Assembly: GCA_012719395.1 (NCBI GenBank)
Contig: JAAYAL010000036.1
Coordinates: 1 to 32,027, forward strand
DNA: 32,027 nt
Direction: 5' to 3'
Source: Gaiellales bacterium
GTDB lineage: Bacteria; Actinomycetota; Thermoleophilia; RBG-16-64-13
Position numbers and translations under genes: made by a program. Positions within the stretch are counted from its first letter, which is position 1. Every line of letters begins with the position of its first letter. The notes beneath the pieces were generated by a model. The model ran no database searches and was not told where the DNA came from. It was given only the letters and a program-made list of their open reading frames with translations. Of the stretch, positions 16,314 through 17,674 are shown piece after piece.

Positions 16314-16556
16314 ATGCCCGCCTACATCATCGCCAACATCGACGTCACCGATCCCGCAGCCTACGAGCCCTACAAGGAGATGGCGGCCACCTGCAACCGG
16401 AGCCATGGATCTCGCTACCTAGCCCGGGGCGGCCGCGTGGAGGTGCTGGAGGGAGACTGCGATGCGAAGCGCATAGCGATCGCGACGCCAAAGGTCCGCC
16501 CGCTCCATCATGGTCCTGTTGGACGGAGTATCCCAGGCACCGCGCTTGCAGCCTAA
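16314..16556 (+). pseudogene. DUF1330 protein with frameshifted C-terminus
   Basis: The first about 55 residues fit the DUF1330 family well (MPAYIIANIDVTDPAAYEPY..., 'GSRYLARGGRVEVLEGD', 'DAKRIAIA'), with GGAGG at good spacing. Intact members run to about 95 residues, with an 'EF(P)S-x-E-x-A-x-x-W...EY' half. Here the frame instead gives 'TPKVRPLHHGPVGRSIPG' and stops at residue 80. Pieces resembling the expected second half ('ARSIM', 'TEYPRHRA') appear in the other two frames over 16485-16590, pointing to more than one indel. Probably a decaying gene of a small dimeric ferredoxin-like fold protein. Confidence 0.6.
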
Positions 16557-16621
16557 CGAAAGCGCCTCTCCGAGGCTCACGCGGAGAACGCCGTCTCTGA
16601 GAACATGCCGTGCAGAAACAC

Positions 16622-16654
16622 GGGGGTGGGACCGGCTCCGCCGGTCCCACCCCC
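16622..16654. terminator. Strong perfect hairpin between convergent genes
   Basis: A 15-bp perfectly paired stem (GGGGGTGGGACCGGC at 16622-16636 with its complement at 16640-16654) closes on a 3-nt loop. It lies between the plus-strand DUF1330 gene and the end of the minus-strand Gly-rich gene, as expected for a bidirectional terminator. Neither side has a clear T-tract. Confidence 0.65.
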
Positions 16655-16709
16655 GCTCACATCCACTATCCCCACTCAGGCCCGGAACACGTCCAGGTCA
16701 GAAGATGCC

Positions 16710-16832
16710 TCAACCCCCGCCACCGGAACCTCCGCCACCGGAACCTCCGCCCCCCGAGCCTCCACCACGGCGGCCGAAGACCATGGCACCTACGATGATG
16801 ATCATGATCACAACAACGAGCGCGATTTCCGT
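16710..16832 (-). CDS. 40-residue membrane protein with Gly4Ser-repeat tail, apparent ACG start
   Basis: One hydrophobic helix (EIALVVVIMIIIVGAMVFG) is followed by Arg-Arg and then a tail of pure Gly4Ser-type repeats (RRGGGSGGGGSGGGGSGGGG). A consensus ribosome site AAGGAGGT (complement of 16838-16845) stands 5 nt before the in-frame codon ACG at 16832-16830, exactly where an ATG would be expected. The next in-frame Met is in the middle of the helix, and the upstream open frame (to 16967) runs through the promoter. A TATAAT box (16874-16869) and a palindrome resembling a CsoR operator precede it. Function unknown; it may be a small envelope peptide with a flexible glycine arm. Confidence 0.6.
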   Translation of the reverse strand, partial: TEIALVVVIMIIIVGAMVFGRRGGGSGGGGSGGGGSGGGG

Positions 16833-16868
16833 GGCCGACCTCCTTATCCGCCGGGAACATCCGTTTCT

Positions 16869-16892
16869 ATTATACCCCATAGGGTATATATG
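16869..16892. promoter_or_regulatory. Divergent promoter region with CsoR-type palindrome
   Basis: TATACCC (16871-16877) and GGGTATA (16882-16888) form a perfect inverted repeat with a 4-nt centre. The form ATACCC-N4-GGGTAT is like operators of the CsoR/RcnR/FrmR metal- or thiol-sensing repressors. A consensus minus-strand -10, TATAAT (16874-16869), overlaps the left arm. A plus-strand TATATA (16885-16890) overlaps the right. Binding would therefore shut off both the Gly-rich peptide and the MgtC gene. No repressor gene is in the window. Confidence 0.5.
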
Positions 16893-16936
16893 GAACGACC
16901 CCCGGGAGGAAGGGGGGGCCACTCGTTGAACAACTT

Positions 16937-17674
16937 GTGCACGCACTACCGGCTCAGCCGCAATCACCGCCGGCCGCCGCGAGGAGGTTTCACATAGCCA
17001 CCAGTGATCTCATCATCCGCATCGCCGTATCTGTAGTGCTGGGAGGGCTCATCGGACTGGAGCGCGAACTGCGCGACCAACCCGCCGGTCTGCGCACCCA
17101 CCTTCTGGTCTGCTTGGGCTCCACAGTCTTCACCCTCACGTCAATCCACGGTTTCGACGGGCTCATCGCCTCCTCACCGCTGCCTCTCACCAGTGACCCC
17201 GCCCGGATCGCGGCGCAGGTGGTGGTAGGAGTGGGCTTTCTGGGGGCTGGCGCCATCATCCGTCAGGGCGTCTCCGTGCACGGGCTCACCACGGCCGCCA
17301 GTCTCTGGACCATGGCCGCGCTGGGCATGGTGGTGGGCTTGGGTTGGTTTGTGCTGGCAGCGATCGTGACGCTGGCCGTGGCCGTCAGCTTGGTGGCGCT
17401 GCGCCTGCTGGAGGAGAAGCTGATCAACCCCCGGGCGCAGGAGCGCTCGATCGTTCACGTGGTGTTGCCCCCCGAGGACGAGAGCGCGTTGGATGGGCTC
17501 ATCAACGCTCTGGATCAGTTGGGAGTGAGCGTTCAGGACATGGAGGCCAGTGTCGGCACGGAGGAGAGCGGCGGCGTGACCATGAACGTGAGGCTGCCGG
17601 CCGGATTGACCAAGGCCCGGCTGGTCCAGGAGCTCACCCGTCTGGAAGGAGTGCACACGGCGGCCGCCCGGTAG
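16937..17674 (+). CDS. MgtC/SapB-family membrane protein
   Basis: The protein has the conserved MgtC N-terminal membrane part: 'LGGLIGLERELRDQPAGLRTHLLVCLGS', here cited in pieces at about 35-62, and 'GVGFLGAGAIIRQGVSVHGLTTAASLW' at about 96-122. Four to five helices are followed by a soluble C-terminal ACT-like domain (about 170-245, 'SIVHVVLPPEDES'). MgtC proteins are linked to magnesium limitation and modulation of membrane ATPases rather than simple uptake. The only standard start is GTG at 16937 without a ribosome site. GAGGAGG at 16981-16987 points instead to the in-frame ATA at 16994, which would give the natural N-terminus 'MATSDLIIRIAVS'. The gene ends 8 nt from the end of the convergent uvrB. 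Confidence 0.85.
   Translation: MHALPAQPQSPPAAARRFHIATSDLIIRIAVSVVLGGLIGLERELRDQPAGLRTHLLVCLGSTVFTLTSIHGFDGLIASSPLPLTSDPARIAAQVVVGVGFLGAGAIIRQGVSVHGLTTAASLWTMAALGMVVGLGWFVLAAIVTLAVAVSLVALRLLEEKLINPRAQERSIVHVVLPPEDESALDGLINALDQLGVSVQDMEASVGTEESGGVTMNVRLPAGLTKARLVQELTRLEGVHTAAAR

Follow-up and report, generated by a model that had tools for sequence, protein, structure and literature searches.

The Streptomyces sigma factor gene sigR starts at a GTC codon behind a AGGAGGTG site and is repressed through initiation factor 3 (IF3), and this codon is kept in 32 of 34 Streptomyces (PMC5472188). In Staphylococcus aureus, ccpN, citZ and cvfC1 combine AUA or AUU start codons with extended Shine-Dalgarno sites, and their output is about 10% of that from AUG, rising to as much as 30% for ccpN when the medium is rich (PMC13009471). 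IF3 was reported to accept only Watson-Crick pairs at the first two bases of the codon (PMC10158994). A parallel of another kind is MgtR, a Salmonella peptide that promotes the degradation of MgtC (PMC6813294). In the part of the literature covered by our search, the term 'ACG start codon' did not occur, which is not proof of its absence.

We analysed a window of 32,027 nucleotides, contig C24 of a 92-contig genome of 2.43 Mb (98% complete) from a Gaiellales bacterium, in which mgtC and a small membrane protein gene diverge from a shared operator (Table 1). Like sigR, the pair has non-standard starts behind extended AGGAGGTG-type sites in a probable thiol-stress context, and infC is non-standard there as well; unlike sigR, which encodes a sigma factor and has a conserved start codon, the mgtC of the window has an unconserved ATA and its control by IF3 is predicted (PMC5472188). 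The S. aureus genes (AUA in infC, ccpN and citZ, AUU in cvfC1) share with this locus the coupling of AUA to a strong Shine-Dalgarno site, infC again included, but they are single genes with start peaks from ribosome profiling, whereas here a divergent pair, one member with ACG, was read from sequence alone (PMC13009471). The ACG codon fits such a mechanism less well than AUA, because IF3 was reported to require Watson-Crick pairing at the first two bases (PMC10158994). Like the small protein, MgtR is a hydrophobic membrane peptide of very small size with a link to MgtC (PMC6813294), whereas the gene in the window is divergent from mgtC, encodes a Gly-rich tail and has four relatives that were not found beside mgtC. 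That the small protein might be an MgtR-like partner of MgtC is a guess from its size, helix and position. The weak-start mechanism is thus one already known, while the paired arrangement is new.

Table 1. Features of the divergent mgtC locus, in window coordinates.
Feature	Coordinates	Strand	Remarks
Small membrane protein gene	16710..16832	-	40 codons from ACG; hydrophobic helix, RR and Gly4Ser tail; stop TGA
Shine-Dalgarno site AAGGAGGT of small gene	16838..16845	-	5 nt before ACG; match of 8
Putative -10 box TATAAT of small gene	16869..16874	-	by eye; overlaps operator
Palindromic operator TATACCCCATAGGGTATA, common to both promoters	16871..16888	.	between the two genes
Putative -10 box TATATA of mgtC	16885..16890	+	by eye; overlaps operator
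GTG, first NTG of mgtC frame	16937..16939	+	judged non-start; lacks a Shine-Dalgarno site, 19-codon extension scores -4.17
Shine-Dalgarno site GAGGAGG of mgtC	16981..16987	+	6 nt before ATA; AGGAGGT, match of 7
mgtC (MgtC/SapB family membrane protein)	16994..17674	+	226 codons from ATA plus stop

The original prediction had placed AAGGAGGT on the minus strand, 5 nt before an ACG (16832-16830), and on the plus strand GAGGAGG, 6 nt before an ATA (16994-16996), and the sequence agrees with both placements. It had also put the two cases within 170 bases of each other; the codons span 167 bases (16830-16996). For mgtC, the frame that begins at the ATA stays open as far as its stop codon (17672-17674). 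Extended back to 16937, the frame matched PF02308 with E 3.8e-40 and 137.4 bits against a curated cut-off of 31.4, which assigns the product to the MgtC/SapB family. We aligned 16 mgtC loci of the bacterial family by an arginine conserved in their first helix, leaving out a second mgtC fragment of genome G017 (L030); L026, also from G017, lacked a motif match. At the position of the window's ATA, 11 of the 15 other loci carried ATG (nine) or GTG (two). The mgtC genes of G009, G011 and G014 had an NTG 11-13 codons before the arginine instead, and the G017 fragment could not be placed. Outside the family, 63 of 64 homologues had an NTG no more than 25 codons before the conserved arginine; these 64 were read from 72 matches, with G039, G061, G212, G237, G253, G279, G284 and G287 left out. 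In one mgtC start region from another family (L278, G255), no NTG lay in the 15 codons between an in-frame stop and the conserved arginine, and an ATT or ATC start is possible there.

The coding signal of mgtC sets in at 16988. By log-odds coding score, the stretch of 19 codons between GTG 16937 and the ATA scored -4.17 and the following 19, beginning with the ATA, scored +3.64, and no ribosome site precedes GTG 16937, so that we rejected this codon as the start. Because of the homologous ATG and GTG codons, the onset of the coding signal, the contrast in scores and the bare GTG, ATA 16994 is very probably the start of mgtC. It is a codon other than ATG, GTG or TTG at the homologous start position, and initiation there can be regarded as fairly secure. 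The ATA was not kept in the family relatives, in which standard starts are the commoner state.

The small gene is open from its ACG to the TGA at 16712-16710 and reads TEIALVVVIMIIIVGAMVFGRR followed by the Gly4Ser tail, and among the repeat units of the tail five of the six counted differences fall at third codon positions. No Pfam family matched the product. When 61 genomes were searched with the 40-residue peptide, G017 alone yielded a clear relative (64% identity, E 2.5e-5), the match continuing past a TGA, and G016 (E 0.012) and G006 (E 0.06) yielded weak matches amid many that looked like chance. A profile of four rows then matched G010 with E 2.1e-8 and, at E 0.02-0.09 amid other equally weak matches, three genes directly beside mgtC in G009, G011 and G014. 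We count these three because they are divergent from mgtC, encode a Gly-rich tail and have an ATACC-N6-GGTAT operator in the gap. The small-protein family thus has eight members, in the window and seven other genomes, all within one bacterial family. Four of them (window, G009, G011 and G014) diverge from mgtC, with the ATACC-N6-GGTAT operator in every gap; among the 16 family mgtC loci, these four had operator and small gene, and the other 12 showed neither under the motif and filter applied. Scored against the profile built from all eight rows, the window's own peptide reached just E 0.00143, a level that scattered chance-like matches also attained. Among 399 genomes of the class, matches outside the family were weak and scattered, the best of them (E 8.2e-4) lying in a 519-codon open frame.

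The remaining members have other surroundings. In G016 and G017 the small gene lies directly downstream of a gene for a cysK-like PLP enzyme (PF00291), and in G006 it is preceded by an ATACC-N6-GGTAT operator and lies downstream of an open reading frame that looks similar to the cysK-like one (loci L157 in G006, L158 in G017 and L159 in G016). For G010 no upstream gene was identified.

The start codons of the small-protein family are mostly non-standard. Five of the eight members have ATA (G010, G017), ATC (G006, G016) or ACG (the window), while G009 and G014 have TTG and G011 has ATG. The window's ACG aligns with the TTG of G009 and G014, and it too is a codon other than ATG, GTG or TTG at the homologous start position. 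Thus, as the original prediction had it, both codons sit where a start is expected, the ATA aligning with ATG or GTG in 11 of 15 other family loci and the ACG with TTG in two orthologues. The conserved I-x-x-W-x-E-I segment has no NTG before it in G010 and G016, where a stop interrupts the frame just upstream, so that either initiation is non-standard or the segment is untranslated. The three other divergent pairs (G009, G011 and G014) have standard starts on both sides. Initiation of the small protein at ACG is not secure, and the AUA half of the explanation is much firmer than the ACG half.

To place the two Shine-Dalgarno sites in context, we took the window together with another 508,262 bases of its genome (540,289 in total) as a gene sample, in which 456 genes were called (457 when pieces were left unjoined); the Shine-Dalgarno and start-codon counts exclude genes that run off the 5' edge of a stretch. 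The sample has 408 genes whose coding onset has an NTG nearby, and of these 29 had a match of at least 7 and 11 a match of at least 8. The sites of mgtC and the small gene, with matches of 7 and 8, are therefore strong or extended ones. The comparison is not circular, because both start positions were fixed by homology, although it covers two cases only and strong motifs lacking a start are common in the sample. There were 102 matches of at least 7 that were not deep inside called genes: 58 were followed by an NTG with an open frame of 30 codons and seven by an NTG whose frame is short, while the other 37 lacked an NTG. Of 15 occurrences of AAGGAGGT in the sample, eight had an NTG 2-10 nt after it. 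A strong motif was consequently rejected as proof of a start, given the 37 of 102 and the eight of 15; the case for both starts rests on homology, and a motif by itself says little.

Sites with a match of at least 6 that point at a codon with no NTG near gave 13 entries in the 540,289 bases, and among these only mgtC combined a near-cognate codon with a match of at least 7. Being below the length that the gene caller accepts, the small gene is not among the 13 entries. Wide use of non-standard starts in this genome was thus unsupported in the sample, and an ATC start candidate at L066 was rejected on finding an in-frame ATG upstream. Starts of this kind behind strong sites are so seldom seen in the sample that a single operator-linked pair with two of them is unlikely to reflect independent accidents. 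The original prediction had called the pairing unlikely by chance, and the rarity of such starts upholds this, with the caution that there are two cases and that strong motifs lacking a start are frequent.

The gene for IF3 itself begins with ATA. Of 18 family genomes searched for infC, all but G011 gave a match (loci L208-L224, G000:C73:17537-17746), and in 17 of these 17, the window's genome included, ATA stands at the homologous start behind GGAGGTG. In G001, G006, G008 and G016 a stop codon lies between the GGAGGTG site and the ATA. The lineage therefore uses ATA for infC, and non-standard starts are not general in it. As a separate observation, orthologues of a membrane protein in genus g11, of 762 residues (L194 near 11242, minus strand, G017) and 739 residues (L204 near 6707, plus strand, G010), have CTG behind AAGGAGG in the two species, with in-frame stops upstream.

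The original prediction had both genes likely controlled by one palindrome, and this palindrome proved to be a recurring operator, with three exact sites in the genome and a counterpart in all four divergent pairs. TATACCCCATAGGGTATA matched once in the window against a mean of 0.00 in 100 shuffles. The three exact genome sites of TATACCCNNNNGGGTATA (reversed control 0) lie in the gap between mgtC and the small gene, before a thioredoxin gene and before a gene for a flavin disulphide oxidoreductase; the regulon loci are window 16871-16888, L086 1501-1518, L088 822-839 and L089. The flavin disulphide oxidoreductase matched PF07992 (E 1.4e-14) and, weakly, a sulfide dehydrogenase domain (E 0.004); we read it as a sulfide:quinone oxidoreductase. 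Exact operator sites were present in 11 of 61 related genomes, with the reversed control at 0 in 61 of 61.

The genome encodes one protein of the CsoR family (PF02583), and the next gene reads as a thioredoxin reductase. With the operator at other promoters and a family regulator in the same genome, the sites have the make-up of a CsoR/CstR regulon. The operator also resembles those of CsoR/CstR (PF02583) regulators in being a pseudo-palindrome with a C/G run and TAC/GTA ends, and here the PF02583 gene is followed by the thioredoxin-reductase-like gene; the assignment is a predicted one. Aligned with CsoR 4m1p, the PF02583 protein keeps both cysteines and has Arg for His four residues before the second. 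We take the His at that position in CsoR 4m1p to be a copper ligand, and Arg in its place presumably fits the fingerprint of the CstR side of the family, whose members sense persulfide. We infer that this protein binds the TATACCCCATAGGGTATA operator. The Thermus sulfur regulator TTHA1953 has a consensus, TACNNTACNNNNGTANNGTA, that is spaced differently from the operator in the window (PMC10318464). No mention of MgtC was found in the part of the literature on CstR regulons that was covered, which is not proof of its absence.

A consensus promoter scan reported no promoter at the operator and neither of the -10 boxes recognised by eye. Its one promoter-like site, at 16989-17016 (mean 0.1 in shuffles), lies over the mgtC start; if real, the transcript would begin after the ATA. 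We found no known RNA family at gathering scores within the window and nothing unusual in the mRNA structure examined for hiding of the two starts. Downstream of both the small gene and a DUF1330 gene, a perfect 16-bp inverted repeat with a 3-nt loop (16621-16655) was missed by the terminator scan because it has no T run. The DUF1330 gene (16314-16556), which ends 154 bases beyond the small gene, is truncated, its match covering profile positions 1-55 of 94, and this hints at decay in the neighbourhood; neither of the two other frames matched the missing remainder.

The explanation we narrowly favour is throttled, IF3-sensitive initiation from a strong site and a weak codon, in a pair under one operator of CsoR-family type. 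Under this explanation mgtC would be translated from AUA 16994 and the small protein from ACG 16832. The strong Shine-Dalgarno site would recruit the 30S subunit and offset a codon that pairs badly with the initiator tRNA. Under IF3 control the poorly pairing codon would mostly be rejected, so output would be low and would rise when IF3 is limiting, as for infC. With both promoters on the one operator, transcription of the pair would be switched together, probably in response to thiol or reactive sulfur, and the start codons would cap the protein yield per transcript. The original prediction had offered weak initiation as one option, and that option gained from the ATA of infC in the same genome, the ATA or ATC of four small-protein orthologues and the recurring operator. 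Against it stand the unconserved ATA of mgtC, the standard starts of the three other divergent pairs, the truncated DUF1330 gene, the weak profile score of the window's own peptide, the lack of a scanned promoter at the operator, the promoter-like site over the mgtC start and the poverty of ACG as a start by IF3 rules, and in view of such results we give weak initiation a probability slightly above one half and loss of the starts one of about a quarter. Selection for weak initiation is not secure.

Under parallel loss, the pair would be undergoing silencing in this lineage, a point change at each start leaving the strong ribosome sites behind and residual translation at most. Several of the results just listed against weak initiation speak for it: most family relatives keep ATG or GTG at mgtC, the other three divergent pairs are standard on both sides, the neighbouring DUF1330 gene is truncated, and ACG is a poor start codon by the IF3 rules (PMC10158994). 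Yet both frames are intact, with 226 codons and a full PF02308 match in mgtC, and both ribosome sites are unusually strong, which is not a product of decay; infC has ATA in the same genome, and ATA or ATC recurs in four small-protein orthologues. We regard such loss as less probable than weak initiation, though as its chief rival.

The alternative that translation begins elsewhere, mgtC at GTG 16937 and the small protein at an upstream or internal NTG, draws on frames that are open that far and on listed open reading frames from GTG 16937 and GTG 16967, but it meets the negatively scoring, siteless extension of mgtC described above. For the small gene, the in-frame ATG (16880-16878) sits inside the operator, and the internal GTG and ATG would drop the E-I residues kept in its family, making this very unlikely. 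An error of base calling or assembly, or a mixture of strains, at one or both codons would be in keeping with an assembly in 92 contigs and with codons each one base from ATG, but it would need two errors at the two start codons of one pair, and the ATA of infC in 17 independent family genomes indicates that ATA starts are no artefact of this assembly; we consider it the least probable reading of all. The original prediction had named reads or relatives with ATG at both positions as the refuting check. Relatives do have standard starts at both positions, but they come from other genera, with main mgtC matches 43-50% identical to the window's; for that reason their starts mark the commoner state and are not proof of error, and the codons were not shown to be errors. 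The genus of the window's genome is represented by this one genome, the closest comparisons being with other genera, and a scan of genome contigs gave 15 loci of at most 49% identity. Of the three options in the original prediction we rank weak initiation highest, followed by loss of the starts and then by base error.

Weak initiation also allows a wider and unlikely proposal, in which the tiny Gly-tailed family would be selected for AUA, AUC and ACG starts gated by IF3, its partner mgtC would have joined the gate in this lineage within a reactive-sulfur regulon, protein dose would follow the initiation machinery, and the small protein would act on MgtC as MgtR does. Gene finders use ATG, GTG and TTG, so that proteins of this kind are truncated, extended or missed, and the 40-residue protein is probably uncalled by them. 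Through the operator, mgtC and a new small-protein family are linked to a regulon of CsoR-family type that is probably thiol or sulfur responsive, and the family-wide AUA of infC provides an internal control for IF3 dependence. If initiation at AUA and ACG is real, this divergent, operator-linked pair would extend the small set of bacterial genes whose output is throttled by a weak start behind a strong site.
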